Shown here piece after piece: positions 14,004-63,674 of a stretch of DNA of 64,000 nucleotides. Every line of letters starts with the position of its first letter. The first letter of the stretch is position 1. The notes under the pieces were generated by a model. That model was not told the DNA's origin and searched no databases. It saw only the letters and a program-made list of their open reading frames with translations. The translations under genes were made by a program, and so were the position numbers. The DNA lies in assembly GCA_947462335.1 (NCBI GenBank), contig OX381706.1:12934784-12998783 (forward strand), given 5' to 3'. The stretch is from Harmothoe impar (lineage: Eukaryota > Annelida > Polychaeta > Phyllodocida > Polynoidae).

Positions 14004-14545
14004 CATTGGGGAATATTAATGCTGAAGAGATGGTCTGAGTCGCAATACAGCCGGTTATTTGTCTCCAATATACTGCTAATGAGCATGGAAATGATTCATG
14101 CCTATCTTAGAAAATTAATATCACACGGGTCGCAGGATGTCAGCACCTAAATTTTAAACCAATAGGCATCCTACATAAAGAGTATATTCCGCTGATGTGA
14201 ATGCATCGCCAAACCTTTGTTCTGTTGAAAGTTCACAATGCTCAACATATGGATAACGTCTCGGCTAAACCGAAGGATTCATGGCAAATTTACATAAGCA
14301 AAATGCACCTTAATAGCATGAACATACACCCACACTTAATTTGAGGAATGGAAAATTAACTACATTCGGTATGTCATGATAAATGTCGTAATATATGTTG
14401 CTTCAGATGTCCATCACATTTAAGAAAGGTTATGATTATGATGAATACGGCTGGTAACTTCTGCACAGCTGAATCCATATTCAAAGGAATCACACAGGTC
14501 TCTGACAAAAAGGTGTCACCTGGATGAGCAACAATAGGTGAGAGT

Positions 14546-31279: not shown

Positions 31280-32440
31280 CATATCCCTACCTGCCCTTAT
31301 CTCCCATAACATCCTCGAATACCAACTTGCCCCTATCTCCCAAAACCTTTATATGCTGGTCTCATCTGTCAACCTGTTCTAAGGTTCAAGCAGCCCTTAT
31401 GTCCCAAAACCTATATAAACTGGTCTCACCCATCAACCTGTCCTTAAAATCAGCATCAAGTTTAAGTTGCCATTATCTCCCAAAAAAGTTATATACTGGT
31501 TCCATATGTCAACCTGTTTTCAAGTTCAAGCAGCCCTTATGTCCCAAAACCTATATACTGGTCTCACCCATCAACCTGTCCTTAAAATGAGCATCAAGTT
31601 TACTTATAAGTTGCCCTTATCTCCCAAAACATATATACTGGTCTCATCCGCCAACCTGTCCTTAAAAAGGGCTTCATGTTTAAGTTAAAAGTTTATGTTA
31701 TATTATACTGGTCTCATCTGTCAATCTGTTCTTAAGTTCAAGTAGCCCTTATATCCCAAAACCTATATATTGGTCTCACCCACCAACCTGTCCTTAAAAT
31801 GAGCATCAAGTTTAATTATAAGTTGCCCTTATCTCCCAAAACATATATATACTGGTCTCATCAGCCAACCTGTCCTTAAAAAGGGCATCAAGTTTAAGTT
31901 GCCCTTATCTCCCAAAACCTATATACACTGGTCTCACCTGCCAACCTGTCCTTAAAAAGGGCATCACGTTTATGTTATGAGGTTATGTTACATTATACTG
32001 GTCTCATCTGTCAACCTGTTCTCCAGTTCAAGTAGCCCTTATGTCCCAAAACCTATACATACTGGTCTCACCCATCAACCTGTCCTTAAAATCAGCATCA
32101 AGTTTAAGTTGCCCTTATCTCCCAAAAAAGTTATATGTTGGTCTTATATGTCAACCTGTTTTCAAGTTCAAGCAGCCCTTATGTCCCAAAACCTATATAC
32201 TGGTCTCACCCATCGACCTGTCCTTAAAATGAGCACCATGTTTACGTTGTAAGTTTATGTTATATTATACTGGTCTCATCTGTCAATCTGTTCTCAAGTT
32301 CATGTAGCCCTTATGTCCCAAAACCTATATACTGGTCTCATCCACCAACCTGTTCTTAAAATGAGCATCAAGTTTAATTATAAGTTGCCCTTATCTCCCA
32401 AAACCTTTATACTGGTCTCACCCATCAACCTGTCCTTCCC
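31280..32440 (+). repeat. left-arm minisatellite
   Basis: About 14-15 units, each with CCCTTAT, a CCCAAAA word, TATATACTGGTCTCA and a CAACCTGT.CTTAAA segment. Unit length alternates between ~64 and ~78 bp, i.e. a ~142-bp higher-order repeat. Confidence 0.8.
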
Positions 32441-32639
32441 AGTGGACACAGAGCGGTATATAAAGGTTTTGGGAGATAAGTTGGTACTGAGCATATATGT
32501 ATATATATACGTTTTGGGAGATAAGGGCTGGTAGGGTTGTGACAACAGTGTATGGGTTTTGGGGGATAAGGGCAAGTAGAACCGGTTGATGGATGAGAGC
32601 TGTATATAAAGGTTTTGGGAGATAAATTGGTACTGAGAA

Positions 32640-32702
<63 letters not shown>
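32640..32702. repeat. (AT)n microsatellite at the fold centre
   Basis: About 60 bp of AT dinucleotides between the two arms; a shorter AT run (33667-33691) sits in the same local context further right. Confidence 0.95.
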
Positions 32703-32704
<2 letters not shown>

Positions 32705-32705
<1 letters not shown>

Positions 32706-34035
32706 TTGGGAGATAAGGGCTGGTAGGGATATGACACCATTATATGGGTTTTGGGGGATAAGGGCAGGTAGGATATGACACCATTATATGGGTTTTGGGG
32801 GATAAGGGCAGGAAGGGATATGACACCATTATATGGGTTTTGGGGGATAAGGGCAGGTAGGGATATGACACCATTATATGAGTTTTGGGGGAAAAGGGCA
32901 GGTAGGGATATGACACCATTATATGGGTTTTGGGGGATAAGGGCAGTAGGGATATGACACCATTATATGGGTTTTGGGGGATAAGGGCAGGTAGGGATAT
33001 GACACCATTATATGAGTTTTGGGGGATAAGGGCAGGTAGGGATATGACACCATTATATGGGTTTTGGGGGATAAGGGCAGTAGGGATATGACACCATTAT
33101 ATGGGTTTTGGGGGATAAGGGCTGGTAGGGATATGACAACAGTATATGGGTTTGGGGGATAAGGGCAAGTAGAACCGGTTGATGGATGAGAGCGGTATAT
33201 AAAGGTTTTGGGAGATAAGTTGGTACTGAATATATATACGTTTTGGGAGATAAGGGCAGGTAGGGATATGACACCATTATAAATGGGTTTCGGGGGATAA
33301 GGGTAGGTAGGGATATGACACCATTATAGGAAATATAAGAAGCAGGGCGGATTATATGAGTAAAGCGGAGAGAGAGAGAATACTCCCCCTGGTGGATCTT
33401 TGAGAACAATTCAGTAAGGACTGGTTGATCACCACACGCCCCTTTGCTCCCTCTGTGGGGGAAGGACTGAACTGCTGGTTTCACTCACCAAGGGCACACT
33501 GGATATAGAGCAGAGGCCGGGGGAGCTCGCCCTCACAACCGCCACACCGCCGCTGCACACGCCTGCTCGCAGAGACACTGAGTTACATAATAAAGGGGCA
33601 AGTAGAACCGGTTGATGGATGAGAGCTGTATATAAAGGTTTTGGGAGATAAATTGGTACTGAGCATATATGTATATATATATATATATATATGTTTGGGA
33701 GATAAGGGCTGGTAGGGATATGACACCATTATATGGGTTTTGGGGGATAAGGGCAGGTAGGGATATGACACCATTATATGGGTTTTGGGGGATAAGGGCA
33801 GTAGGGATATGACACCATTATATGGGTTTTGGGGGATAAGGGCTGGTAGGGATATGACAACAGTATATGGGTTTTGGGGGATAAGGGCAATAGAACTGGT
33901 TGATGGATGAGAGCTGTATATAAAGGTTTTGGGAGATAAGTTGGTACTGAGCATTTATGTATATATATAATACGTTTTGGGAGATAAGGGCTGGTAGGGA
34001 TATGACACCATTATATGGGTTTTGGGGGATAAGGG
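32705..34035 (+). repeat. 45-bp minisatellite, right arm
   Basis: Unit ATATGGGTTTTGGGGGATAA followed by GGGCAGGTAGGGATATGACACCATT, spaced exactly 45 bp (e.g. at 32781, 32826, 32871). The array is broken by a variant unit (AGTAGAACCGGTTGATGGATG) and by a unique island at 33335-33590. Confidence 0.9.
33335..33590. other. unique island inside the minisatellite arm
   Basis: Non-repetitive sequence with CTCCCCCTGGTGGATC and GC-rich stretches interrupts the 45-bp array. It could be a later insertion or captured DNA. No gene seen. Confidence 0.6.
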
Positions 34036-34507
34036 CTTTTGTGGGATAAGGGCATTTCTTGTGTGGGATAAGGGCTTTTGTGCTTTAAGGCCACTTTTGT
34101 GGGATAAGGGCCTGATGTCAGCCCTTATGTCCCAAAACGATAGTCTTTTGGGGGATAAGGGCCGTTTTGTGGGATAAGGGCCTGACAGGGGCAGTTTGTG
34201 GGGACTTTATACTTTAATACAACAGGGCGAAGGCCTCTTTTCTTAAAACAATGCTGAGCATGGAAATCTGTAACACCTCACCCCCTCACCCACGGGGCTT
34301 CTTCACGGGCCGTGTCCACGGGGATGCGGGCAGGGATTAGGGGCAACATGCAGCTGACCGACTACTGCGGCCACTGTAGTCCCTAGGACTACGATGTCGC
34401 CGCCTGCCCCTCCCTGCGTTCAGAAGACCTCTGTGGCTTATAGGATCGGCCCAAAATCGGGGTGCAGCTTATACACAAGTTAGGCTTATACATGACTCAT
34501 GAGGTTT

Positions 34508-51823: not shown

Positions 51824-52918
51824 ACTTTGTTGAACAGTCAATCAATAAGAATGAACAGTCCAAAAGTCAGTTAATCTCTATTGCACTAAGGAGGCGACAC
51901 ATACTCTGAAATTTAATGCTGACCTTAATCACATGGAGAGTGTCTGTGGCCTATAACGCAGAATAGTCGTGAGGCTTCATAAGACTACAGCTTTGATTGC
52001 GGAACTGGCCATGTTATATCTGAAATAGTTTTGTTCCTTACAATCGTTAAAATGTCATGAATAACACACTTAATTCATTTTAAAGTTATATTTTCTGTCA
52101 GTTTTTTAACGTCAGTTTCCTTTATATCAGAGTGACTTTTGACTTTAATTGCACAGTGAAAATGTACACCATGACATCATTATTCACTGCAATATTTGAT
52201 TGGCTGTCTGATACTGGTACAGTGGACTGATAAATTACAACAAATGGCAGGCAACTTCTCTTAGACTATAGCACCGTGTGATAAATGTATAAATGTATTC
52301 CTCACGACAGAGGAGGTAGTCCGAACAGTGTGAAAGTGTCTGTTTCTTTCATTTTATCAATCAGTATAGTAGACAGTTTTTGGATCACAAGCCAGGTGCA
52401 CAACCTTAACCAGGCAATCCATCAGCGCTCTGCCTCAGTGAATAATCGCGCCAACTGCACCTCTACAGGGTCTATAGGGTCCTGGGGTCTAATTCATAAA
52501 TAACAGGAGCAAGAGTTGAACAAATGAGTAAGACTTGAACCTCATACAAAAGAAAGGAACAAAAAGTGCTACCCCCAACATGATTATTATTCTGATTTCC
52601 TGTTGCATTCCCTAAGTATTTTGAGGATGACTGCACATTACCCTACTGGTGGAAGATCATCAATATGTAAGAAAATGCTGTAAAGAAAATGATTATACAT
52701 ATATGAGAATGTATAAGAAAATGCTGTAAAGAAAATGTGCAGGGGGTGTCCATTGATGAGCCTTCCATCCACTTGGTGTCATCAACCCTGTGTGATCTTT
52801 TATCTTTGGTGAACACTCTCAAAGGACAAATAATCCCTGGGTCAGCTTTAGAGAGGAATATCTTTTATATGAATTACAATGTTACTTCTTTAGATGGTCT
52901 GTAAAGTCCAACCCATGT
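51824..52918. other. non-coding, no feature recognised
   Basis: AT-rich; GTAAGAAAATGCTGTAAAGAAAATG occurs twice (52668, 52711). No gene. Confidence 0.4.
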
Positions 52919-53137
52919 TAGGGTAGATGGACCTAAAGGTAAAAATGTACCTTGAGATATTCACCTTGATCATGCAGTTATTCATGTATGGTATTGTCTT
53001 TATTTGTCCTTTGCTGGAAAGGGTATAAATTAAAGTGTACTGTCATACAAAAAAACAGGTTTTTTTATACATGAATGACTAGAAAGTTGAGGTGGACATC
53101 TTATGGTACGTGGTAACATTTAGGTCCATCTACCCTA
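52919..53137. mobile_element. 219-bp MITE interrupted at its edge by the Polinton
   Basis: TAGGGTAGATGGACCTAAA (52919-52937) is a perfect reverse complement of 53119-53137. The Polinton's target duplication (53134-53139) covers the last four bases of this MITE, so the Polinton inserted after it. Confidence 0.85.
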
Positions 53138-53139
53138 TC
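53134..53139 (+). repeat. left target-site duplication CCTATC
   Basis: Identical to 63669-63674, directly outside the right terminal repeat. Six-bp duplications are characteristic of Polinton/Maverick integration. Confidence 0.95.
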
Positions 53140-53580
53140 AGTAGTATAGTATGTATCGGAACGGGACTATAGTTAAGTACTGTTTATTACTCAATCGACA
53201 TGCAGCCAATCAGAGGCCTCCATTTGGTCACGTGACCCGTTGCCATGGTAACGTGACCTACTTAGGGCTCTCAGCCAATCAGAAGCCAGCATTCTGGGTG
53301 ACCTACTGACCTACTTAGAAGCTCTCAGCCAATCAGAGGCCGGCATTCTGGTAACCATGGTAACGTGACCTACTTACGTCACGTGACCTACTTAGGCTCA
53401 GCCAATCAGAAGCCGGCATTCTGGTAACTAGGGTAACGTGACCTACTTAGGGTTTGTTTGTAAACAACACCACGTGGCTTTCTTGTTTGTAAACAACACC
53501 ACGTGACACGTGACTGTTTGTAAACAAACAAACAAAAAAAAGTTATGTAACTTATATATAGAAATAAAAACACAACAAGA
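53140..53580 (+). repeat. left terminal inverted repeat (441 bp)
   Basis: Mirrors 63250-63668, with small indels (an extra ~17 bp near 53540). It contains internal subrepeats: four CAGCCAATCAGA boxes, five CACGTG, four GTAACGTGACCTACTTA-type words and three TGTTTGTAAACA. The inner end has TATATATAG. An AATAAA on the minus strand (within 53181-53188) could serve leftward transcripts. Confidence 0.95.
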
Positions 53581-53599
53581 TAATTTCTTTTCTTTTCAT

Positions 53600-53612
53600 T
53601 TTATTCTTTATT
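53600..53612 (-). terminator. tandem AATAAA poly(A) signals, leftward genes
   Basis: Two TTTATT words (53600-53605, 53607-53612) read AATAAA on the minus strand, between the last leftward ORF (ends 53645) and the terminal repeat. They fit the 3-prime end of the virion-gene transcripts. Confidence 0.65.
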
Positions 53613-53644
53613 TTTTCATTTTCAATCAGAAAAAACACACAAGT

Positions 53645-53944
53645 TTATGCTTTTTTAGCTTGCTTCTTCGATTTGCAGCAACTCAACAGGCCGCAAAGTC
53701 TCACGCCGCCGTCACTCGCACCACCACACCCCGGACGACTTTTCTCCAATAGACATTGCACGACTTTGGATAAATCCAACACCATTTCGGCAAGGCAGAG
53801 AATCTTTGCCTCCATGAAACGGCCGCCATCGCAACAACCCGTCACAACAGCATCATCGATAGCTTCTGACTCACGACCCGGTCGCTCAGCTTTGGGATTT
53901 TGCTCATGCGCATGACGCACTTCTTGGGGTTTCTTGTTCGACAT
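53645..53944 (-). CDS. cysteine-rich 99-aa hypothetical protein
   Basis: Not a family I recognise. The frame starts at a true ATG (53944), overlaps the last ~100 bp of the protease gene in another frame, and ends just before the poly(A) signals. The N-terminal half is charged (MSNKKPQEVRHAHEQNPK). A middle segment of ~25 residues could form an amphipathic helix (EAKILCLAEMVLDLSKVVQCLLEK). The C-terminus is rich in Gly and Cys with a CGLLSCC motif followed by lysines. It fills a space that otherwise has no gene, in an element with little wasted sequence, which favours its being real. Against that, the first third is constrained by the overlapping protease frame and I see no homologue. Confidence 0.45.
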   Translation of the reverse strand: MSNKKPQEVRHAHEQNPKAERPGRESEAIDDAVVTGCCDGGRFMEAKILCLAEMVLDLSKVVQCLLEKSRPGCGGASDGGVRLCGLLSCCKSKKQAKKA

Positions 53945-54294
53945 GCTTCAATTAGGAAATGAACGCAATGAGGTCCACAGGTGTCAGCAGAAGTGTCTTG
54001 TAGTTGAATGCGGTTTCTTTGCCACTTGAACGGAGCAGAGCGTTCCACGAAAGACAAGAACTCCGCACTCAGCGGCGGTAAGCCGAAGGAATCAAAGTAG
54101 TACACTTCACCCGTGCTCGACACGTAAAACGCCACCCAATGCTGACCTGGTAAATGTTGCGGATCTGTGTTGCTCACGAAACAAGTGTCTTTGATAGGGT
54201 GCTTCGGAATAGTGTCACAAGAGAAAACGCCCAGGAAACGATGTTTTGTGTGAACGTTTTCCTTCAACACTCTGCTTATTTCAAGCGTGTTCAT
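53842..54294 (-). CDS. adenain-like cysteine protease (150 aa)
   Basis: Maturation protease of the adenovirus/Polinton type (C5/C48-like), expected to process capsid or core precursors during virion assembly. The catalytic set is in order with adenain-like spacing: His52 (GQHWVAF), Asp68 (YFDSFGLPP), Gln99 and Cys106 (DTCGPHC), the Gln lying seven residues before the Cys. I chose the ATG at 54294: it gives the typical short N-terminus (MNTLEIS...) and starts 30 bases after the capsid stop codon. A longer open frame to 54483 starts at GTG and only shadows the capsid gene. It lies directly downstream of the major capsid gene on the same strand, as in other Polintons. Confidence 0.93.
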   Translation of the reverse strand: MNTLEISRVLKENVHTKHRFLGVFSCDTIPKHPIKDTCFVSNTDPQHLPGQHWVAFYVSSTGEVYYFDSFGLPPLSAEFLSFVERSAPFKWQRNRIQLQDTSADTCGPHCVHFLIEACRTRNPKKCVMRMSKIPKLSDRVVSQKLSMMLL

Positions 54295-54323
54295 ACGATA
54301 CGCCAAGTACCGCCGTCTTGTCT

Positions 54324-55628
54324 TCAGTTCATGTGGTAGTCGGTGACGGGGTGTCGATCTCGGGTCAGCTCGACGACGTTGTCGTACACCAAGTAGAGTA
54401 GCACCGTTGTTGTCGCTTGTAGCGCCGAGCGGAAACTGACTTCCACCCTCAGCTGACCCGCTCTTATAAGGTTCACGCGACACCCGTCGTGCGATCTGTC
54501 TGGGGTTAAGTCGAGGGGGAACACCGTGTAACCGTTCAGGAATTGTTCGTATGAAATACCGCAGGAGCGCGCGCCCTCGTACATCCCCGTTTCCGTGTGT
54601 AGCGCCAAGTACTCTCTCACGGCCGCTTTGGTCTTAAAGTCGGGCACGTAGGCGTCGTTCGGCACTTTCTGATCGTTCACTATCACTTGAAGCGAGCTGA
54701 TGTCGTAATGCTTCATCTCGAACGGGTTCTTGGTGTAGCTACCGTTGAAGGCGTCGTGGTCAAGGAAGCAAATCATCATCGACTTGGGAAGCTGGCCTGT
54801 GTTGGAGTGCGTGTAGCTGTGATCTCTGTTACCTTGAGGGATGGCGTAGGTCGTCACCTCCACTCTGTTCACCGGGTAGTCGAAGGGCCCGTGTACTATC
54901 ACCGCTCTCTCGTGTGTTTCCGCTACAGCGTCCGCCACCAGCACGCGTCGCACGTAGAGCTTTGCTTTGTAGATCTTCAAGCTGTAGCCTCCGTCAGCGG
55001 CGCACATCAGATAGAAAGAGGGCGCCGCTTGTTTCAGAGTGAGATTGATTTCTGTCTCTCCAACGATGAGCTTCGGTTGATGAGCCAGGTCAAAGTGCAG
55101 TCGCGCCATCAGCGAAAAGCGCTTGTTGGAGATTAGCTTCTTGCGCGCTTTGTACCCCGCATTCGCGTCAGTCAACGTGTCAAACTGACCGGGCGTATCT
55201 TCATGCCACCCCTGGGCGCTCATGACGCCGTCCTTCACGTCTTTGTTGTAGTTGAGTAACCCTTCCAAGTAAGCTCGGTAAGGGTAGGTCTCGGTGTTGC
55301 CAGACACTTTGAAACCGCCGATGGAGACTTGGACGTCTTTGAAGAGCGAGTGAGCCAAGTTGTTCACCGGAGCTACCGCGTCGGTGTCCTCGATCGCCGC
55401 TCCGTCCTTTAGCACTTGACATTCCAGATGAAGGTAATTCTCGTTCAGGTCTGTGTACTCTTGCGACTTGTTGATGGTGAAATTTATGTTACCTCCATCC
55501 TCTAAAGAGTTTTTTGTTTCTATCCCCAGGAAAGACGACTTTAAGATAGTAGTCTGAGTCGGCGCTACGGTGTGCAGGTCGAGCTCAGAGAGCGCGCACT
55601 CGTTACTGCTCTCGTGTACGTAAGCCAT
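54324..55628 (-). CDS. Polinton major capsid protein (double jelly-roll)
   Basis: A 434-aa protein of the family annotated in many animal genomes as F54H12.2-like and recognised as the Polinton hexon-like major capsid protein. The N-terminal signature is present (SELDLHTVAPTQT, residues 14-26), followed by the conserved beta-rich body (NYLHLECQVL, FKDVQVSIGG, YPYRAYLEGLLNY) and a C-terminal segment with FPLDLTPD and GQLRVEVSF. Length and order are normal and there is no break. The ATG at 55628 is preceded by a TATA element (55681-55690) 52 bases upstream, so it may have its own late-type promoter. Expected to trimerise into the icosahedral shell. Confidence 0.95.
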   Translation of the reverse strand: MAYVHESSNECALSELDLHTVAPTQTTILKSSFLGIETKNSLEDGGNINFTINKSQEYTDLNENYLHLECQVLKDGAAIEDTDAVAPVNNLAHSLFKDVQVSIGGFKVSGNTETYPYRAYLEGLLNYNKDVKDGVMSAQGWHEDTPGQFDTLTDANAGYKARKKLISNKRFSLMARLHFDLAHQPKLIVGETEINLTLKQAAPSFYLMCAADGGYSLKIYKAKLYVRRVLVADAVAETHERAVIVHGPFDYPVNRVEVTTYAIPQGNRDHSYTHSNTGQLPKSMMICFLDHDAFNGSYTKNPFEMKHYDISSLQVIVNDQKVPNDAYVPDFKTKAAVREYLALHTETGMYEGARSCGISYEQFLNGYTVFPLDLTPDRSHDGCRVNLIRAGQLRVEVSFRSALQATTTVLLYLVYDNVVELTRDRHPVTDYHMN

Positions 55629-55680
55629 TGTGTTCTCTCTTCATGCGGCCGACAGACTGACGCCGGCCGCCTCCAGTCTT

Positions 55681-55695
55681 TTTATTTATACCTGA
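55681..55695 (-). promoter_or_regulatory. TATA element for the major capsid gene
   Basis: Minus strand reads GGTATAAATAAAAAGAC, in the gap between the core-like gene (ends 55708) and the capsid ATG. The ATPase gene has the nearly identical GGTATCAATAAAAAGGTC upstream, suggesting a shared promoter signal. Confidence 0.65.
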
Positions 55696-55707
55696 ACGCC
55701 TAGGCGC

Positions 55708-56133
55708 TTACCGGTCGAATACATCCCCTCTACGTCTCTTGCAAGAGCCACCGCCCGTCTGAGGAGAATGCCGGCGACGTTTCGACCCTTTCTTAGACGC
55801 GACAGGCGTCTTTCCTCCCGAGAACGCCGTACTCGCCAGTCTCTTCAGAGCGCCTGCGCCTCGGTCTTTCACGCTGCTCTTTAAAGTCCGACCCGCCAGC
55901 ACATCTTTAGCTACGCCCACACCGGCGCGGAGCAGCGTTTTTCCCACCGACTTCAATAGCGGGGTAGCCGAGCGCATCAGACCTAACAGAGCGCCGCCTA
56001 AACCGTGCCCGCTCTGGAAAGAGCGCCCGCTGTACACGTTGACGCCGTTGCCCAGCTGCGCGTTGTAGTAATCGCTGTACCCTCTGCCGACGGTGCGCCT
56101 GGGTGGAAAGTACGGAACGCGTTGACGCATCAT
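55708..56133 (-). CDS. basic virion core / pVI-like protein (141 aa)
   Basis: Small, strongly basic protein. A Tyr/Gly-rich N-terminal segment (GYSDYYNAQLGNGVNVYSG, with FQSGHGLGG after it) is followed by an amphipathic helix-like stretch (ALLGLMRSATPLLKSVGKTL) and a Lys/Arg-rich C-terminus (SKKGSKRRRH, CKRRRGD). This arrangement recurs beside capsid genes in Polintons and adintoviruses, where such proteins are compared with adenovirus pVI/pX core proteins; that parallel is from general knowledge. Likely DNA- or capsid-associated and possibly a protease substrate. The start is the ATG at 56133 (or the adjacent ATG at 56130); an upstream extension would use TTG. Only 11 bases separate it from the minor capsid stop. 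Confidence 0.8.
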   Translation of the reverse strand: MMRQRVPYFPPRRTVGRGYSDYYNAQLGNGVNVYSGRSFQSGHGLGGALLGLMRSATPLLKSVGKTLLRAGVGVAKDVLAGRTLKSSVKDRGAGALKRLASTAFSGGKTPVASKKGSKRRRHSPQTGGGSCKRRRGDVFDR

Positions 56134-56144
56134 TTTTCTCTCTT

Positions 56145-57263
56145 TCAACGCTCAATAGGTCTCAGATGAAGTGTCACGGTCACCTCGCCTCTACCGAATG
56201 GGATGGAATGACCGGATCGGTCTCTTAAATAGATGCCGACCTTGGTAAACCTCTTGGATTTCAAGGGGAAATAATCCAAATGGGGAAAACTGATAGCTTG
56301 CACGCCACCTCGACGCTTTCCGCCTCTGTCCACCGCCACGCAGCGCAACAGCGGCACTTGCATGTCGCCCACACGTCTCTCCTGGATCATGTCGGTGTAT
56401 ATGTACACAGAGTGCACGTCCCCGTAAACATCCATCGAGTAGGCGCCGGTAGTCGGCGACGCGAAACACGTCTTCTCTCCGAAGCCTAGAACGCATGCGA
56501 GATGCTGACTCAGCAGGACAGCACAGTGTCTCGGCGGTTTGATGGTGACGCGTTTCGTCTTGGCGTCGTACGATAAGATCCGCATCGGTTTGAGCAAGAA
56601 GCTGTCGCCCTCTAGTCTGTCATCTCGCAACGTCTCACTCAATCGCTCGATTAGGGTGTGGTTGCTTCCGGTGAAAATAGGAGGTATCTCGAATATGTTT
56701 GGCATGAAACTGCGCACTCCCATGTCCTTCTCCATCTTTTCGATCATCTGTCTTGCTTGATGGCTGATCGTCTTCTTCTTCACCGCCGGGGACAAGAACT
56801 GCTTGTATACGGCATTCGTCTGTCTCAAGTCGACCTCTCTCTTGAACCTTTTTGTTTCCGGTTTCAATTGCTGCTCTTCCGACGTGTCTGATATCTCTTC
56901 CACCGTTACATAGCTCGCTTCCTTCCAGTTCAGCGGGAATTTTGAGCTGAACGTTAGCTTGCTCAGACCGTTCGCGTTTTTCATTCTCTTCCAGTCTACC
57001 TGTGGTTTTTTTCCTTCGGAGAATTTAGTTTCTTTTAAAACCTGGATCGCCTCCTCTAGCGAACCTTTGGTGCGCAGAGGAACAACGATGATCAAGTCGT
57101 CGTCGTGCACGTTAGTCCATTCTGTAGGGAGGATGATCTCAGTCAGAGCCGCTTCGTACGCTTCGGGCAGAAGGAGCGGCGAGTCGAAGTGAGTTCGGAA
57201 AGACGTCAAGCTGTTGTCAGGATAATACTCCATAGAGCTGTTGCTAGGTAGAGTGATGTTCAT
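56145..57263 (-). CDS. Polinton minor capsid (penton-like) protein
   Basis: A 372-aa protein in the position and of the size of the Polinton minor capsid, a single jelly-roll thought to form pentons. The N-terminus (MNITLPSNSSMEYYPDNSLT, then FRTHF and L-PE-YEAAL-EII-P) is typical of this family, in which a strand-rich start is followed by a long variable insert; here the insert includes a charged region (~130-185). The C-terminus has VGIYLRDRSGHSIPFGRGEV near residues 341-360, another common family feature. The ATG at 57263 follows an A-rich leader. No breaks. Together with the hexon-like protein it should complete the icosahedral capsid. Confidence 0.88.
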   Translation of the reverse strand: MNITLPSNSSMEYYPDNSLTSFRTHFDSPLLLPEAYEAALTEIILPTEWTNVHDDDLIIVVPLRTKGSLEEAIQVLKETKFSEGKKPQVDWKRMKNANGLSKLTFSSKFPLNWKEASYVTVEEISDTSEEQQLKPETKRFKREVDLRQTNAVYKQFLSPAVKKKTISHQARQMIEKMEKDMGVRSFMPNIFEIPPIFTGSNHTLIERLSETLRDDRLEGDSFLLKPMRILSYDAKTKRVTIKPPRHCAVLLSQHLACVLGFGEKTCFASPTTGAYSMDVYGDVHSVYIYTDMIQERRVGDMQVPLLRCVAVDRGGKRRGGVQAISFPHLDYFPLKSKRFTKVGIYLRDRSGHSIPFGRGEVTVTLHLRPIER

Positions 57264-57284
57264 TTTATTTATTTTTTTTTTTTT

Positions 57285-58421
57285 CTACGTTATTTTTTTG
57301 ACGGGGATCCACTCGTTGAACTTGTCGTCGTAACCTAACCAACGTACGAAAGCTAACTCTTTACCGTCGACGGTCTTGCGGCGCAACACCTCGTCTATCA
57401 GGTAGTTGTTGTCGTAACGACTCTTGTACACCTTCTGAACCTCTTCCGGGTAGAAGACGCCTTTTATCTCCTCGCCCTTGTCGTCTTTCAGCTCGAACCC
57501 TCTGCTTCCCAACGTCTTAGCAACGTCGACCACTTCCTCGCGCCAGTTTCCCTCGTACCCTTTGTCGAAGGCGCCTTTAGTTCTCAACATCCTCACTCTG
57601 TCACCCGGAGCGATGACGTCGACGGCGGACGTCTTTGTTTTTTTCTTCTTTTTCCATATTTCGTCGATTTGTTTGTTAGTTGGGAGATCTTGTCGGTAGA
57701 AAACTGTTTCGCTGTTTTCCGAGCTGACTTGAGCCGGCGCCATTTTCAACGTCTTGTGGTGAGTGCGATTGTAAGAAGACACTACATGGTGCAGTACGTC
57801 TACGTAGCGATACGTGCGCTTGTGTGTGAAATAACGCCACAGCTTCTCCTTCAGACTGCGGTTCAAGCGCTCCACTAGACTAGCTTTGATGTCGTCGTTC
57901 TCGCCAGTGAAGAACTCTATGCCCTCGCTCTTCAAGTGATCTTGAAAGATCTTGTTCAAAAACTCTTTCCCCTTGTCTGTCTGAACAGTGCGCGGTCGTC
58001 TCTCGCCAGTGCCTGTCATCTCTCGGAAGGCCTCGGTGACATCAGCGCCGCTCTTGGATTTAATGGGAACGGCCCACGCGTACCTAGAGAAAACGTCGAT
58101 CGCCGTCACCACGTACCGGAAGCGGTCGTTGTGAGACACCAAAGCTTGCATGTCCATCAGATCTATCTGCCACTGCTGATCGATTGCGCCGGTTATAGTC
58201 TTGTTCCTTGCGAATTTTCTCCGAATGGGTTTATGTTTAGTGTAGGCGTCCAGCGACACTAAAGCATCTCGGATGACGGCCGGGTTCAGGTGGCGAAAAT
58301 GATGTTTCTGGAGTTTAGTCACGCTAGTGAAACTGGAGGGCGCTTTGACGTCGGTATATCTAGCTACTACGCGCTTCTTTTCTTTTTCCTTCTTGGTCAG
58401 TCTCTTCACTGGTTTGCCCAT
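57285..58421 (-). CDS. retroviral-type (rve) integrase with chromodomain
   Basis: A 378-aa integrase expected to join the element's ends to host DNA with 6-bp staggered cuts, matching the CCTATC duplication. The catalytic triad is in place: Asp87 (WQIDLMDM), Asp149 (VQTDKGKEF) and Glu184 (SLVERLNR), giving DD35E spacing. An N-terminal basic segment and LNPAVIRDAL helix precede the core. After a Lys-rich linker and an SH3-like region (GDRVRMLRTKG...GYEGNWREEVV), a C-terminal chromodomain (~340-378; YLIDEVL, FVRWLGYDDKFNEWIPV) has the aromatic residues expected to read methylated histone tails. The ATG at 58421 overlaps the end of the upstream gene by 16 bases. No damage seen. Confidence 0.95.
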   Translation of the reverse strand: MGKPVKRLTKKEKEKKRVVARYTDVKAPSSFTSVTKLQKHHFRHLNPAVIRDALVSLDAYTKHKPIRRKFARNKTITGAIDQQWQIDLMDMQALVSHNDRFRYVVTAIDVFSRYAWAVPIKSKSGADVTEAFREMTGTGERRPRTVQTDKGKEFLNKIFQDHLKSEGIEFFTGENDDIKASLVERLNRSLKEKLWRYFTHKRTYRYVDVLHHVVSSYNRTHHKTLKMAPAQVSSENSETVFYRQDLPTNKQIDEIWKKKKKTKTSAVDVIAPGDRVRMLRTKGAFDKGYEGNWREEVVDVAKTLGSRGFELKDDKGEEIKGVFYPEEVQKVYKSRYDNNYLIDEVLRRKTVDGKELAFVRWLGYDDKFNEWIPVKKIT

Positions 58422-59605
58422 GGTGGGCTTGTTGAGGGCGTGAACGACGAGCTCGCCGCTAGGCGGTTGCGCCCTTTCCTTTTCTTACGCGGCACGCTCC
58501 TATAGGAAGTCGGAGTTTGGAAAAGTTCACGGTCGTCCTCCTCGTCTTCAGAGGATTGATCGTCCACCACCTGGAGAGAAGAGTCTGCTGCTGCTACTGC
58601 TGCTGCTGCTGCTGCTGCTTCTCCTTCTTCCGAGTCGAAGCTCGGTCGTTTCCGACCTCTGTCAGCAAGCCGTGTGTCCAAACTTTGGCCAGGTCCGCTC
58701 GCTTTATACAGATGGTTTCCGATCAAGGCGTCTGTGGGAACTGCTTCGCGCAGCGCTTTCGTGAACGGCGAGTAGCCCGCCGGTCTGGGCGCCGTCTTCC
58801 TGAACCTGGCGGCGTCGTTCAGTAAGTCCACTATGTTGATGCGACGCTCAGGTGGTATTCTCCGACCCGACATCTCGCGCACCGCACCGTCCTCGTTCCA
58901 CTTGATCACACCGGATTTCTCCAATTGTTTGTACAGCGCCACGGTCCGAGTGCGATTCCTCTTGGGAACTTGGTTCACCAACCGCTCGAGTAGGGACGCG
59001 CTGGCCTCTTCAGCAGACTGACGGAGGTGAGCCGGGGGCGAAGAAGAGTAGGACGAAGAGATGTTGCTGTTGTGGGGATTCGCGAGAAAAAATTGCAATC
59101 TATTCAACAACCTTCGGTATTTCAACATTTTCTCGCGCGATTCCAAAGTGGGGTCGTTCAACACTAAATCCAAGTCCCTGTAGATAAACTGTAGCACCTG
59201 GTGCAAGGCCGCGTCGGGATGAAGGGACTGTTCTGCCTGCTTGTGGTAATAGGCCATGTCGGCAGGTAGGCGGGCGGCGGTGGCAGGAGCGGAACTCTCG
59301 TTCTTTTCAGTGCGCTCATCAGGAAGAGGAGGAAGGTTTGGAGCAGTAGAAGTACTAGCAGCAGCGACTGCAGTAGTAGCAGCGCTAGTAGTAGCAGCAG
59401 CAGCGGGCACATGATGAAGTAGACCTGCTCGTGATGATTTGTAGAGCGTCTCAGGATCCACGAGCGCTAAACGTTTGTAGTGTTGTTGCTGCTCTGAGTC
59501 CGTCATGGGGACGACGGTGGCAATGACGCTGGTGGTGGCGGTAGTGGTGGTGGTGGTGGTGGTGGTGGTGCTGTCGGCGAGTAGGTGTCGAATGAGGTGT
59601 CTCAT
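58406..59605 (-). CDS. conserved Polinton protein of unknown function (399 aa)
   Basis: The start is the ATG at 59605 (MRHLIRHLL); the longer frame uses GTG. The N-terminal third is low-complexity (a Thr run, then Ala/Thr stretches). A helical segment follows (LHQVLQFIYRDLDLVLNDPT, then REKMLKYRRLLNRLQFFL) and then a conserved module, VIKWNEDGAV...INIVDLLNDAARFR...PTDALIGNHLY, at about 235-305. From memory, proteins with this helical part and a terminal (I/V)GW/KWNE-G-V...VPxxLIGN module accompany capsid genes in many animal Polintons; the function is unknown, perhaps a virion-associated or assembly factor. The C-terminus is acidic (SSEDEEDDRE) then basic (PRKKRKGR), an NLS-like pattern. Homopolymer codon runs suggest slippage-prone evolution. 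Confidence 0.8.
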   Translation of the reverse strand: MRHLIRHLLADSTTTTTTTTTTATTSVIATVVPMTDSEQQQHYKRLALVDPETLYKSSRAGLLHHVPAAAATTSAATTAVAAASTSTAPNLPPLPDERTEKNESSAPATAARLPADMAYYHKQAEQSLHPDAALHQVLQFIYRDLDLVLNDPTLESREKMLKYRRLLNRLQFFLANPHNSNISSSYSSSPPAHLRQSAEEASASLLERLVNQVPKRNRTRTVALYKQLEKSGVIKWNEDGAVREMSGRRIPPERRINIVDLLNDAARFRKTAPRPAGYSPFTKALREAVPTDALIGNHLYKASGPGQSLDTRLADRGRKRPSFDSEEGEAAAAAAAVAAADSSLQVVDDQSSEDEEDDRELFQTPTSYRSVPRKKRKGRNRLAASSSFTPSTSPPWANQ

Positions 59606-59943
59606 ATACGGAGAATGCACTTTATAAGCGGTAAGGCCATCCCTATGAGAGCCGGAATGAGGAAACCTCCCTCTTGTACCAAGACGCGTCTCTTTTTTTT
59701 GATGGGCGTAGATTTTTTGCCGACCTCCCTCAACACGTCAGCCGATTCTCGAAGCTTGTCCAGTTGTTTGTCGCTGAGCGGGATGTTCCCTACCAGTAAA
59801 TTGTGACAGATCTCACTTAACGCTGCGATCAGATCGTCGCTTCCAGAGTCTATTAGATGCAAGCAGTCCTTTGGCGAGCACTTAGCTAAGTGCTTGAGAG
59901 TACCAAAGTGTCTTTCGAGTAGATGAGAAGACTTTTTTTTTTG
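59602..59943 (-). CDS. small conserved core-like ORF lacking an ATG
   Basis: The open frame runs from directly after the ATPase stop (TAG 59944-59946) to 59602. Its predicted product has a helical, Cys-containing start (LKHLAKCSPKDCLHLI), a DLI-AL-EICHNLL-GNIPLS segment, a Lys-rich patch (KKSTPIKKKRR) and a hydrophobic tail after a GGF motif (GGFLIPALIGMALPLIKCIL). From memory this matches a small Polinton protein usually about 90-110 aa, similar in placement to virion core peptides. No in-frame ATG precedes the conserved part; the first ATG is near the very end. The frame is the same as the ATPase's, separated only by TAG and an A10 run. Possible routes: non-AUG initiation, readthrough of the TAG, frameshifting, or a lost start codon. 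The stop overlaps the next gene's ATG. Confidence 0.7.
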   Translation of the reverse strand, partial: QKKKSSHLLERHFGTLKHLAKCSPKDCLHLIDSGSDDLIAALSEICHNLLVGNIPLSDKQLDKLRESADVLREVGKKSTPIKKKRRVLVQEGGFLIPALIGMALPLIKCILRI

Positions 59944-60663
59944 CTACTGCTTTCTCTTGTTCTTTTTTTTGTCTAGCGGTACGAACACTAGCTGAGAGTG
60001 TATGGACGTCAAAGAGGAGCGTATTCTCAGATCGTCAGGTGTTGACTGCTTGAAGTCCAGAAGGAGGTATGAGTGAGGTCGCTTGAGTTCATGGGTAAAT
60101 ATACTAGAGAGGGCCGCCGCGTTGGACGGAAACACCTGGCGAGACAGACTAGCTATTTGCCCCATGTCGCGCGGGTTCTTGAAAACGATCATGTAGTGAG
60201 CGTTCAGACTCATAGTTCGAAAGTCGGGTGATTTCTGGAATAGGTTCTGAGTGATGTATATGACGCTCACGTTCCAGTGATGCGAGTATTTAGTAAAGAT
60301 GTCGGCTACCACTTGCTGATTGGAACTGCTCATCAGATCGTCCAATATCAGTAGAGTGTGGGGTCGTAAAGCGTCTTCTGCTACTTCCACGTCTCCCGCT
60401 ATAGACTCTTTGCTAGGAAGACCTTCTCTGAATTCCACACCGTACTGATTTTGCATTTTTTCAAACAGAGGTTGCCACTCGCCGTAATGGTAAAAAGTCT
60501 TTTCCACCGGCGGCGTGACCAAATTGTTCACGTCGCTCAGAAATTGATCCACCAAGCGCGATTTTCCACAACCCGACGGACCGCTAATGATACAACTAAA
60601 GGGTCCTTGTAGTCGAGCGTCGAAATGAATTTCTGTGAAGAGTTTGCTTTTACTACTGGACAT
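59944..60663 (-). CDS. genome-packaging ATPase (FtsK/HerA type)
   Basis: A 239-aa P-loop ATPase expected to pump DNA into the capsid. Walker A GPSGCGKS at residues 28-35, Walker B LLILDDL at 104-110, and a conserved VIYITQNLFQK motif (134-144) typical of the A32-like/Polinton packaging family. A charged C-terminus ends in KKKNKRKQ. The ATG at 60663 sits behind an A-rich leader; a TATA-like motif lies ~115 bases upstream. It ends in TAG directly before the in-frame core-like ORF. Size and motif spacing are normal. Confidence 0.93.
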   Translation of the reverse strand: MSSSKSKLFTEIHFDARLQGPFSCIISGPSGCGKSRLVDQFLSDVNNLVTPPVEKTFYHYGEWQPLFEKMQNQYGVEFREGLPSKESIAGDVEVAEDALRPHTLLILDDLMSSSNQQVVADIFTKYSHHWNVSVIYITQNLFQKSPDFRTMSLNAHYMIVFKNPRDMGQIASLSRQVFPSNAAALSSIFTHELKRPHSYLLLDFKQSTPDDLRIRSSLTSIHSQLVFVPLDKKKNKRKQ

Positions 60664-60777
60664 TTTTTTTTGTTTTTTTTTCAGGACGCGTCAGAGAGCG
60701 GTTGTGTGTCTGACTGTCTGCTGTGTTTCTCACTCGAACGGTCGGTAGTGAATGGTTGTGGAGAAAAGTCAGCCGAC

Positions 60778-60792
60778 CTTTTTATTGATACC
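60778..60792 (-). promoter_or_regulatory. TATA-like element upstream of the ATPase
   Basis: Minus strand reads GGTATCAATAAAAAGGTC, differing from the capsid element (GGTATAAATAAAAAGAC) at few positions. Confidence 0.55.
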
Positions 60793-60871
60793 GGCCGGTG
60801 TCACAGTAGCGGCGGCAGAAGTGACTTTTTTTTGCGATAAAATTCTATTTTCACTCAATAGTCATAAATGT

Positions 60872-60904
60872 TTGTATCAGACTCCAGAGGAGTCTGATAC
60901 AAAT
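60872..60904. terminator. perfect 15-bp hairpin between ORFs
   Basis: TTTGTATCAGACTCC-AGA-GGAGTCTGATACAAA. It lies in the 357-base gap between the 216-aa ORF (upstream in the leftward direction) and the ATPase, so in RNA it would be in a 3-prime UTR or between transcription units. Role unknown: RNA-processing or stability element, or an operator. Confidence 0.75.
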
Positions 60905-60926
60905 ATTTATTTTTTTTTTAAAAAAG

Positions 60927-61014
60927 AAGAAGAGGAGGAGGAGGAAGAGGAGGAGGAGGAGGAGGAGGAGGAGGAGGAGGAGGAGATTAATTTTTTTTTT
61001 TTTTTTTTTTTTTT
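60927..61014. repeat. (GAG)n tract and T-run
   Basis: GAG/GAA trinucleotides at 60927-60985 are followed by a ~24-base T-run ending at 61014. On the minus strand this is a long poly(A) starting about nine bases after the stop of the 216-aa ORF, then a CTC-rich stretch. Confidence 0.9.
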
Positions 61015-61020
61015 GATCAT

Positions 61021-61671
61021 TTAGGCAAAGCTCGTCGCTTTGCCGTTTTTTTTTCTATTTCTGTGTTGTGACACGATTGTCTCGAAAAAGCAATAAGGCG
61101 TGTGAGCGCGGCGGTGACAAATACATATTGGAGCGTATGGTTTAAAATAGTGCGTCCCTATCTTCTTCAATTCGGCTGCGTTGCAATATGCGGGATAACA
61201 AGTGACGACGTCGAAACGTTTAGAGACCGTGTTCACGTCAGCCACAACGCGCGCCCACCGAGTGGGAGCTGCAGTCGCTCCCAAGAAACCGATCGGCTTG
61301 TCGAATCGTTTCATAGCACTTATTCTCACTTTATAAGAGGAGGCAGGGTGAGGAGAGTAGCGGCGCTCTTTCTTTTCATGAAACGCCCAACGAGTGGGGG
61401 CGCTGAGAGCAGCTGTTATGCAATAGTAGAGTAAATGCTGTTCTGAGAAGACGGCTCTCGGCCATGTCGCTACGTTTTCCTTTTCCGCTCTTGTATAACG
61501 ACGATGGCGCTCAGCTTTGCATTTCTCGAGAATTCGGTACGCCTCAAGAGAAGCGTGAACCTCAACTACGTGACGCTCTCTCCTTTGAGATAAAAAAATA
61601 GCCGGGCAGTTGAGGAGAGCGCTTTGTTCGCGCGACCGTCTTTTAGAAACTCGCGCCCTCTGCAGCGCCAT
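61021..61671 (-). CDS. 216-aa ORFan in the place of PolB
   Basis: Not recognised. The ATG at 61671 is in good context (AGAAATGG) and the frame is uninterrupted. The protein is basic. An Arg-rich N-terminus (RARVSKRRSREQ) is followed by a helical charged middle, then two related segments containing APTRWA (about 91-96 and 135-140), an internal duplication. The C-terminal part has spaced Cys/His (CYPAYC near 158-163, then CICHRRAHTPYC near 182-193), which could bind zinc. A TATAAAAG box lies ~220 bases upstream on the same strand. The DNA polymerase B usually present in Polintons is missing and this gene lies in that half, so a replication-related or DNA-binding role is a guess. A poly(A) run sits just after the stop. 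Confidence 0.65.
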   Translation of the reverse strand: MALQRARVSKRRSREQSALLNCPAIFLSQRRERHVVEVHASLEAYRILEKCKAERHRRYTRAEKENVATWPRAVFSEQHLLYYCITAALSAPTRWAFHEKKERRYSPHPASSYKVRISAMKRFDKPIGFLGATAAPTRWARVVADVNTVSKRFDVVTCYPAYCNAAELKKIGTHYFKPYAPICICHRRAHTPYCFFETIVSQHRNRKKNGKATSFA

Positions 61672-61888
61672 ATTTCTTTCCTCCGAAACAAAAAAGACTG
61701 AGTGAAAATAAAAATTTAAGAAAACAAAAAGCTCAAAGAAAAAAAATAAGCAATAAGCAGACTCAGCTCGAAATTCCCTGCTGGCGTGATGGCGGTGACT
61801 GCAGGCGGTGGCGGCGGTCGGCTGGCCGGCGGTGGCGGTGTCGGCGGCGATGGTAGAAGGGTGTGTGGAAAGAGAGACGCATCTCAGT

Positions 61889-61896
61889 CTTTTATA
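61889..61896 (-). promoter_or_regulatory. TATA box for leftward transcription
   Basis: Minus strand reads TCCTATAAAAGACTGAG. The first long ORF downstream is the 216-aa gene, with a predicted leader of ~190 bases. Confidence 0.65.
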
Positions 61897-62094
61897 GGAG
61901 CGGCGAGTCTGACATTTTCAGCTGTCGCATGCTGACCTGCTGCTATCATAAGAGAAACAAAAGCCCTAATCACACTTTTCAGCTGGATCCTTCCACCCCG
62001 CCAGACATGGATCCCAGATGGGAAGGCGGTTTAAAATTAAATCCGTGTACCGACTGTCATACAATAGGGTAATTAGTTGAACGCGTGTTACCTG

Positions 62095-62124
62095 TATAAA
62101 GGATTAACGGGTCATAGGCTCAGC
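62095..62124 (+). promoter_or_regulatory. rightward TATA plus initiator-like TCAGC
   Basis: GTATAAAGG is followed at core-promoter distance by GCTCAGCG, whose A lies ~27 bases from the TATA. It may be an alternative promoter for the alanine-rich gene; no other rightward ORF follows closely. Confidence 0.5.
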
Positions 62125-62386
62125 GTGTGTATAGAAAAACAACTACAGGTAGCGTGAACAAAGCGACCCCCTCCCTTTCTGTCACTCTGTCTGTGACTAG
62201 AGGGTGCGCGTGTGGTAAGCGGCTTATATCTAAAGAAAAAAACAAATCACCCTCGCCTGTCATCAGCAGACAGCCGGCTGGCGGCTGGAAAATGCGATTA
62301 GAGGGATGATGAGCCACGTAGTAAGCGACTTAAGGCTGATCTAAAGACCTGCCGTGAAGGGGCAGCTGGCCGGTGGCTTGAAAAAA

Positions 62387-62430
62387 GGCGGGGCGTAAGG
62401 GTATATAAGGGGAGTGAAACCACATTCAGC
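62387..62430 (+). promoter_or_regulatory. GC box, TATA and initiator for rightward gene
   Basis: GGCGGGGC (62387-62394), TATATAAGG (62402-62410) and ATTCAGC (A at 62428, ~26 bases after the TATA start) are arranged as a textbook RNA polymerase II core promoter, ~100 bases upstream of the ATG at 62525. Confidence 0.75.
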
Positions 62431-62449
62431 ATCGTCATCATCGTTCACG

Positions 62450-62494
<45 letters not shown>

Positions 62495-62524
62495 GCACCG
62501 CGCCTCAATTTGCAGATCCTCGTG

Positions 62525-63160
62525 ATGGAAAGTTGCTACCGTGACATGAAGCGGAATGACGAAGCGGCGCGCGAATGTGAAGCTGATGCTGTAGCCTCTG
62601 CTACTGCTGCTGCTAGTGCTGCTCAGCGTGCTACTGCTGCATTTACTGCGGCTGTTAGTGACGCGGGTCGTGATGACGTTGTTGTTGTTGCCGCTGCGGC
62701 TGTGACTGCTGCTGTTGCTGCCGCCGATGCAGCTACTCATGCCACCGATGCCGACGCTGCTGCTGCTGATGCTGTTGCGGCTGCCGATGACGCCGCTGAT
62801 AACGCTACTAGTGCCCGCTCTGCCGCCCTTGCTACTGTCGCTGCTGCTGTTGTTGCTAATGCTCACGCTACTGCTGCTGCTGCTGCTGCTACTGCTGCTA
62901 CCGCTGCTGCCGAGGCTGCTGCCGCTGCTGCCGATGCTGCTGCCGATGCTGCCGATGCTGCTGCCGATGCTGATGTTAGCAGTCGCGTCGACAAAGAATC
63001 GTCATTTGTCACTCTTAAAGCCGCTCCAGTGGAACGCGCGACGGGTAGTAGGGCTACCAACGCGACGGCCGGATGGTGCAAATGGTGTCGTCGCTTCTGC
63101 TCGTGCGCTTGCTTTTCTTCCGGTCCTACCTGCTGCTGCTACGGTATGATAGTGTTATAG
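62525..63160 (+). CDS. alanine-rich protein with cysteine tail (211 aa)
   Basis: The only rightward gene. The start is the ATG at 62525 (GTGATGG context) rather than the upstream GTG. N-terminus MESCYRDMKRNDEAARECEA is charged. Residues ~22-155 are mostly Ala with regularly spaced Asp, Thr, Val and Ser, predicting long alpha-helix or coiled coil. The last ~30 residues switch to a Trp/Cys-rich tail (GWCKWCRRFCSCACF, then TCCCYGMIVL) with about nine cysteines. Alanine codons are mixed (GCT, GCC, GCG, GCA), so it is not a simple GCT expansion, though GCT-rich DNA gives open frames on other strands too. A GC box, TATA and initiator lie upstream. I know no homologue. A rod-like structural or surface protein anchored through the cysteine tail is one speculation. 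Confidence 0.65.
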   Translation: MESCYRDMKRNDEAARECEADAVASATAAASAAQRATAAFTAAVSDAGRDDVVVVAAAAVTAAVAAADAATHATDADAAAADAVAAADDAADNATSARSAALATVAAAVVANAHATAAAAAATAATAAAEAAAAAADAAADAADAAADADVSSRVDKESSFVTLKAAPVERATGSRATNATAGWCKWCRRFCSCACFSSGPTCCCYGMIVL

Positions 63161-63249
63161 TGTTTGAATGAGAACGCGCGTAGTTACACATAGACGCTGT
63201 TACAGATGTGCTTTTTTATTCGAAAATATAATTTTAACATAAGATGGAA

Positions 63250-63668
63250 CTTGTTGTGTTTTTTTCTATATATACGTTGTTTGTTTACAAACAGTCACGT
63301 GTCACGTGGTGTTGTTTACAAACAAGAGAGCCACGTGGTGTTGTTTACAAACAAACCCTAAGTAGGTCACGTTACCCTAGTTACCAGAATGCCGGCTTCT
63401 GATTGGCTGAGCCTAAGTAGGTCACGTGACATAAGTAGGTCACGTTACCATAGTTACCAGAATGCCAGCCTCTCATTGGCTGAGAGCTTCTAAGTAGGTC
63501 AGTAGGTCACCCAAAATGCTGGCTTCTGATTGGCTGAGAGCCCTAAGTAGGTCACGTTACCATGGCAACGGGTCATGTGACCAAATAGAGGCCTCTGATT
63601 GGCTGCATGTCGATTGAGTAATAAACAGTACTTAACTATAGTCCCGTTCCGATACATACTATACTACT
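63250..63668 (-). repeat. right terminal inverted repeat (419 bp)
   Basis: Mirror of 53140-53580. Inner end ACTTGTTGTG, outer end TACTATACTACT. It contains the same CCAAT (as ATTGG), CACGTG and TTGTTTACAAACA words. An AATAAA at 63620-63625 could end rightward transcripts. Confidence 0.95.
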
Positions 63669-63674
63669 CCTATC
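63669..63674 (+). repeat. right target-site duplication CCTATC
   Basis: Identical to 53134-53139. Confidence 0.95.

Follow-up and report, generated by a model that had tools for sequence, protein, structure and literature searches.

The window analysed here, a 64,000-nt stretch of contig OX381706.1 from the polynoid annelid Harmothoe impar (assembly GCA_947462335.1, positions 12,934,784 to 12,998,783), contains one complete insertion of 10,529 bp at window positions 53140-63668 (hereafter the window element), a Polinton-like element with virion and integrase genes and no DNA polymerase B (PolB). PolB was found on separate elements with the same ends, so that the elements look like parts of one divided, virus-like system. 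We consider it probable that the window element represents the virion/integrase part of a multipartite Polinton, and that the PolB class copies it through the shared ends. Judged by their sequences, at least three classes of element have a common terminal sequence. Their gene content (as read or marked) was separate, their ends were shared, the window class was flanked by 6-bp duplications, and the ends numbered in the thousands. The first-pass annotation of this DNA foresaw neither the three or more classes nor the thousands of ends. Its suggestion of a self-packaging element that borrows a polymerase agrees with the separate same-end elements carrying PolB; the borrowing itself we infer.

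The absence of PolB, which that annotation had pointed out, was confirmed by tblastn with the PolB of two other host element families. Neither the 1,172-aa PolB of a second Polinton in the genome (element A) nor the PolB piece of the partner class (L068) gave a significant match in the window element, and the positive control, locus L001, aligned over 1,170 residues with an E value of 0. A cryptic PolB remnant was rejected on the same two negative queries. In Pfam, no polymerase or primase family matched the element, and the only helicase-type matches were P-loop matches of its packaging ATPase. Pfam is unreliable for PolB here, since it missed the full-length PolB of L002 and L004 (the core piece alone gave 1e-29) and scored only 16 bits for L068; a genome-wide Pfam listing of PolB is likewise not reliable for the L068-type class. 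The lack of polymerase and primase matches, with helicase-type matches confined to the ATPase P-loop, would suit an element that needs no polymerase of its own kind, being copied by host enzymes and moved by its integrase. This is scarcely credible in a genome with thousands of PolB-marked places and with PolB elements that have the same ends.

The first 33 nt of the terminal repeat occurred, with no more than 3 mismatches, at 14,333 places (7,155 + 7,178) in the 1.51-Gb assembly, and the reversed control at 0. As an upper estimate, were each of these ends part of a complete element, some 7,000 elements of 9-10.5 kb would account for as much as 4-5% of the assembly. Pairs were analysed for the first 100 end places listed, all with 0 mismatches and lying in C1 0-5.24 Mb. 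These formed 40 adjacent plus/minus pairs less than 20 kb apart, with 20 ends unpaired. Ten of the 40 pairs spanned 10.34-10.54 kb (the window type), 28 spanned 8.7-9.9 kb, and two measured 13.2 and 15.9 kb. The latter two (C1:3921638-3934882 and C1:4267525-4283450) fit neither size class and could be nested insertions or larger elements.

Markers separated the size classes. The capsid marker, present at 1,626 places in the genome (reversed control 0), was listed at 13 places in the 5.24 Mb: nine in long pairs, none in short pairs, two at unpaired ends (1,549-1,553 nt) and two without a listed end. It lay 1,549-1,556 nt from an end in 11 of the 13, and its presence in 9/10 long versus 0/28 short pairs gave a Fisher value of 6e-8. 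The 33-nt PolB marker (2,580 genome places; reversed control 0) was listed at 14 places, ten in short pairs, none in long pairs, three at unpaired ends (1,167-1,168 nt) and one without a listed end; 13 of these lay 1,167-1,247 nt from an end (0/10 long versus 10/28 short pairs; Fisher 0.038). None of the 40 listed pairs held both markers. The Death marker (2,420 genome places; reversed control 0) was listed at 13 places, ten of them in the same ten pairs as PolB and 6.6-6.9 kb from the PolB marker. The other 18 of the 28 short pairs had neither PolB nor Death markers. A third marker, derived from the element end at L059 (913 genome places; reversed control 0), had 11 listed places in the stretch, seven in these 18 short pairs and four outside the listed pairs. 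According to the first-pass annotation, PolB in siblings with the same ends would turn the window element into an internal deletion. Elements with these ends do carry PolB, but they belong to another size class without the capsid marker, and the right thirds of 17 window-type siblings gave no match to the L068 PolB.

Three 1.5-kb pieces were read from one short element, C1:127367-136872. The first (L068) consisted of one uninterrupted frame of 499 codons that contained KLMGNATYG and MDTDS, which we take to be polymerase motifs, and it matched a second PolB, from another family of the same genome (E 2e-9). The second piece encoded a PC4-like protein (E 2e-5, 24.4 bits versus a cut-off of 25), presumably of the single-strand DNA-binding type, and held a frame with weak zinc-finger matches. 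The third encoded a Death-domain protein (E 1.4e-7) matching the Death-domain gene of element A (2.6e-24). The PolB class (about 9.0-9.7 kb) was thus read as carrying PolB, PC4-like and Death-domain genes, and the third class measured 9.2-9.7 kb. Capsid, protease, ATPase and integrase found no match in the 4.5 kb read. This bears on a one-sided satellite arrangement, in which the PolB elements would be self-sufficient with their own integrase and the window class would borrow the polymerase, its capsid serving itself alone in a virophage-like manner. The greater number of PolB than capsid marker places (2,580 versus 1,626) and the 5 kb of the PolB class outside the parts read speak for such an arrangement. 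Nevertheless, we regard it as unlikely, as the parts read contained no integrase or capsid gene and the shared ends would let the window integrase serve both classes. The PolB element may equally rely on the window element for integrase and capsid, and we do not retain the term satellite proposed in the first-pass annotation.

The end of another element adjoined one sibling of the window element (L020) and was linked to the PolB class by a single 96-nt match to L070 (93%), which lay 0.9-1.0 kb inside, where it was expected. Compared by eye, this end (996 nt, with 8 CACGTG and 2 CCAATCAGA sites) had one difference from the window repeat in the first 98 nt (BLAST 89% over 128 nt); beyond about 98 nt it diverged, only shorter motif-rich pieces being alike. 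The element end at L059 was 96.5% like the window repeat over the first 86 nt and then differed. The stretch L059:217-2600, the end of the third class, was GCT-rich like the window's right region and showed no long frame where it was read.

Transposons commonly give rise to deleted derivatives that keep the ends, and the classes could be complementary internal-deletion products of one full-length Polinton, that is, defective genomes, for which the 13.2- and 15.9-kb end pairs might be cited. We find this very unlikely. Simple deletions of one parent would keep the full 392-nt repeat, whereas the PolB-class end departs from it after about 98 nt. Moreover, 38 of the 40 listed pairs measured 8.7-10.6 kb and none was near 17-20 kb, and a 216-aa protein of the window element has relatives at 79-83% identity, so the window layout probably predates the burst of copies.

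In the multipartite Polinton that we favour, the PolB of the second class would recognise the common outermost ~98 nt (the AGTAGT... ends). In adenovirus, CATCAT is a terminal triplet repeat that permits jump-back in protein-primed replication. The AGTAGT start of the window element resembles a terminal triplet repeat of this kind, and such ends would be suited to a protein-primed start with jump-back. The PolB class would then copy all classes as linear DNA, while the integrase, capsid, protease and ATPase of the window class would insert, and perhaps package, all of them. Replication in trans, integration in trans and packaging are what we infer. We see about even chances for a stronger version, a Polinton virus that is truly segmented, with three or more integrated segments (virion/integrase; PolB/PC4/Death; third) linked by nothing more than a common end of ~100 nt, each inserting independently and all together occupying up to ~4-5% of the genome.

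Several points weigh against a divided system, which is known here from sequence alone. Only 4.5 of the 9.5 kb of one PolB element were read, and an integrase or virion gene could lie in the remainder. The Pfam match of L068 to PF03175 (E 0.0044, 16.4 bits) was below the cut-off of 25.8, and its top row was an unrelated glutaredoxin-like domain, also below cut-off. None of the markers occurred in 11 of the 28 short pairs, one of the ten long pairs and both longer pairs; the marker listings comprise 0-mismatch places only, which makes a missing marker in any one pair weak evidence. Both the 13.2-kb and the 15.9-kb pair, known by size only, could be combined elements. Among the first 100 PolB and 71 capsid places listed, two PolB-capsid distances on C1 fell under 12 kb; at 4.3 kb the two markers belonged to different listed ends, and the distance of 11.9 kb was not resolved. 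We must also note that 4 positions at which the left and right ends of the window class disagree recur in each of the 17 siblings that have a right repeat; the ends are therefore not quickly homogenised.

The terminal repeats and 6-bp duplication described in the first-pass annotation were both borne out, with 392-nt arms at 98% identity and CCTATC perfect on both flanks. The features of the window element are as follows.

53134-53139, no strand: left copy of the target site duplication, 6 bp, CCTATC
53140-53531, plus strand: left terminal inverted repeat, 392 nt, starting AGTAGT, with 5 CACGTG and 4 CCAATCAGA sites
53842-54294, minus strand: adenovirus-type protease (Pfam; listed frame begins at 54483, start assigned to the ATG at 54294)
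54324-55628, minus strand: major capsid protein, predicted double jelly-roll fold, 434 aa (structure prediction)
55708-56148, minus strand: putative small basic virion-like protein, 146 aa (34% match in element A)
56145-57263, minus strand: candidate penton/minor capsid protein, 372 aa (size, position, weak match)
57285-58421, minus strand: rve integrase, 378 aa (Pfam PF00665, E 2.7e-13)
58406-59620, minus strand: 404-aa frame, possible virion accessory protein (position, size, weak matches to element A)
59602-59862, minus strand: 86-aa frame (33% match to an open reading frame in element A)
59944-60663, minus strand: genome-packaging ATPase, 239 aa (Pfam Adeno_IVa2 above cut-off)
60910-61016 (approximate limits), no strand: microsatellite-like stretch, length variable between copies (sibling comparison)
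61021-61671, minus strand: 216-aa frame (open in 16/17 siblings)
62525-63160, plus strand: Ala-rich repetitive frame, 211 aa (open frame; coding status doubtful)
63277-63668, minus strand: right terminal inverted repeat, 392 nt, with a TATATA motif just internal
63669-63674, no strand: right copy of the target site duplication, 6 bp, CCTATC

The G+C content of the element (~0.47-0.54) exceeded that of most of the remaining window. All its exact CACGTG and CCAATCAGA sites, which we take to be E-box and CCAAT-type sites, fell inside the terminal repeats; the 5 CACGTG sites of the left repeat compare with a mean of 0.14 in 1,000 shuffles. With such sites in them, the repeats may double as promoters and replication ends. 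The first-pass annotation had described a promoter-rich spacer in the right third; the site clusters noted here are in the terminal repeats. Of 8 differences between the two repeats of the window copy, 4 recurred in every one of the 17 siblings that have a right repeat and the other 4 were private, so the claim of a recent insertion holds only in part. An imperfect inverted repeat (74 nt, 76%) within window positions 52916-53140 abuts the left end of the element, and a stretch similar to 52916-53140 (81%, 220 nt) adjoins sibling L037.

Read leftward on the minus strand, the gene order was the 216-aa frame, ATPase, 86-aa frame, 404-aa frame, integrase, penton candidate, small basic protein, capsid and protease. 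Profile searches, which the first-pass annotation had proposed, backed the protease (PF00770, E 1.5e-4), the integrase and the packaging ATPase (PF02456, E 1.7e-5, with P-loop matches to other families too). A weak match of the integrase to a C-terminal chromodomain (PF00385, E 8.5e-4, 19.6 bits) was below the cut-off of 25.1. The major capsid protein had no Pfam match. Its model (pLDDT 85, built from 28 sequences) matched the double-jelly-roll capsids of PBCV-1, Sputnik and mavirus, with E values down to 9e-17, and by this predicted structure it is a double-jelly-roll capsid protein. Database relatives of this protein were 95, 81, 79, 79, 73 and 72% identical; viral-contig scans with the protein and its alignment gave nothing informative. 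Among the other searches, PDB by sequence gave nothing significant and PHROGs returned one weak, chance-level row. The penton candidate matched weakly (25%, E 2e-5) an open reading frame beside PolB in element A of the same genome. The integrase, ATPase, protease and both capsid genes had been described as uninterrupted; all these frames are open, but the penton identity of the 372-aa frame is not settled, the label coming from size, position and the weak match. The 404-aa frame had 5 related proteins in a database search.

Two orphan genes had been proposed for the right third, and the 216-aa frame indeed looks like a real gene. Its protein has three database relatives (97, 82 and 79% by BLAST; 97, 83 and 83% in the alignment) that align throughout with three short gaps, and 4 of 6 changes among siblings were silent; its predicted structure (pLDDT 32) was uninformative. 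The coding status of the Ala-rich frame is doubtful.

Further copies with the same ends, which the first-pass annotation suggested looking for, were found with the same layout. The left repeat was searched in the host assembly (736 contigs), and the best 40 of 468 candidates, the ones that were scored, were all 100% over 392 nt. Thirty left ends were taken as loci, and the expected right-end site was fetched for 20 of them. The right end was at the expected place in 16 of the 20, and in one more (L015) it lay behind a LINE inside the ATPase gene, so that 17 of 20 had both ends; the same right third was present in 17 of the 20. That LINE (L064:5442-9274) carries reverse transcriptase and endonuclease in a 1,035-aa frame, with a 12-nt overlap of the flanking matches. 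Target duplications in the 17 two-ended siblings, a tally that leaves out fragment L011, were perfect in 15, had a one-base mismatch in one and were missing in one. The remaining three (L011, L013 and L026) were broken or truncated: L011 and L026 are left ends breaking at 54211 and 54216, beyond which the parts read showed no long frame, and L013 breaks at 59411. In the parts read, neither these three nor L015 proved to be a PolB-bearing sibling. An internal deletion unique to the window copy was rejected, given the 17 of 20 siblings with both ends and the same right third.

The protease frame was intact in 28/30 sibling left ends and the 216-aa frame in 16/17 right ends; middle parts read in two siblings (L062, L064) matched the window at 99.7-99.8%. 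All siblings were picked for a perfect left repeat, and their diversity therefore describes the youngest copies only. Seven pieces were compared: six had a pairwise diversity of 0.06-0.28%, and the left repeat, for which the copies had been selected, had 0. Only 5 of 37 variable sites occurred in more than one copy, and 4 of these 5 lay in the spacer. With so few shared sites and such low diversity, the sampled copies appear close to a star-like burst. Variants in the capsid gene's C-terminal half comprised one silent and seven amino-acid changes, as expected for decay after insertion. The relatives of the 216-aa protein at 79-83% make it probable that the right third predates the burst in the host genome.

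Element A (C3:73505133-73529000; L066, L002, L067) encodes a 1,172-aa PolB together with protease, capsid, integrase, ATPase and a Death-domain gene. With its polymerase near the virion and integrase genes, it is by its gene content an ordinary Polinton. Its PolB frame was open and near-identical in 7 of the 8 fetched loci (L002-L008, 98.7-99.7% alike), and L001 was ~70% alike at the protein level. An ordinary family such as this could supply the polymerase of the window class, and the open, near-identical frame in seven loci, with virion and integrase genes beside it in the copy read further, would suit that role. We consider it highly improbable, however, as no copy of the 33-nt end (≤4 mismatches) occurred in the 23.9 kb read around the element A PolB, and element A proteins are only ~25-35% identical to those of the window element. 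The ends of element A were looked for and not found. Several dozen further PolB rows, from the 83 candidates scored out of 695 and in many cases with open frames of ~1,400-1,570 aa, suggest that the genome has additional Polinton families.

Elsewhere in the window, positions 31327-34037 hold large arrays of related minisatellites (units of 45-290 nt) with opposite GC skew on the two sides, and 24643-26747 holds two adjacent plus-strand open frames of 263 and 307 aa, outside the element.

The joint transport of polymerase, integrase and capsid is why Polintons are regarded as self-synthesising. If the multipartite reading is true, the split of these functions over separately inserted, numerous elements shows that such unity is not needed, suggests how multipartite DNA viruses, bidnaviruses for example, may come about, and makes the balance among parts of a divided integrating virus testable in sequence data. 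Before a Polinton without PolB is written off as dead, elements that share its ends should be sought.

Like Polintons/Mavericks and adintoviruses, the window element has terminal inverted repeats, a 6-bp duplication, an rve integrase, a protease, a packaging ATPase and a predicted double-jelly-roll capsid. The strict definition of either group does not cover it, because a protein-primed PolB is missing from the same element and sits on separate same-end elements. The window element would work like the virion half of a Polinton or adintovirus. In the available text, Eupolintoviridae are given as 15-40 kb (PMC12567637), as against 10.5 kb here. Adintoviruses are defined by a PolB with an OTU-like domain and a hexon in one genome, with an integrase that has a C-terminal chromodomain (PMC11071296), a combination from which the window element departs by its lack of PolB. 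A search of the open-access literature found no multipartite Polinton and no paper on non-autonomous or PolB-lacking Polintons.

As in segmented genomes, several DNA units with shared ends and complementary genes were found here (the PolB unit read in part). A comparable case is that of the bidnaviruses, including Drosophila Vesanto virus, whose divided genome includes PolB; terminal repeats are alike in many of the putative Vesanto segments, a point on which the authors are cautious (PMC8363768). Bidnaviruses are single-stranded DNA viruses with a parvovirus-type capsid and an NS1 helicase, and the descriptions accessible in PMC11071296 and PMC11071308 include no rve integrase. The window capsid is predicted to be a double jelly-roll, unlike their parvovirus-type single jelly-roll, and the only helicase-type Pfam matches were those of the ATPase P-loop, NS1 as such not having been looked for by name. 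Many protist Polinton-like viruses lack a detectable polymerase, according to Bellas et al. (PMC10120064), and the window element resembles them as an integrated capsid-coding element without a recognised polymerase; in the part of that source available, no partner element with shared ends is described. With virophages (mavirus, Sputnik) the window element shares the capsid fold, and reliance on another replicator is conceivable. The helper of virophages is a giant virus, whereas the likely partner here is an integrated element with the same ends.

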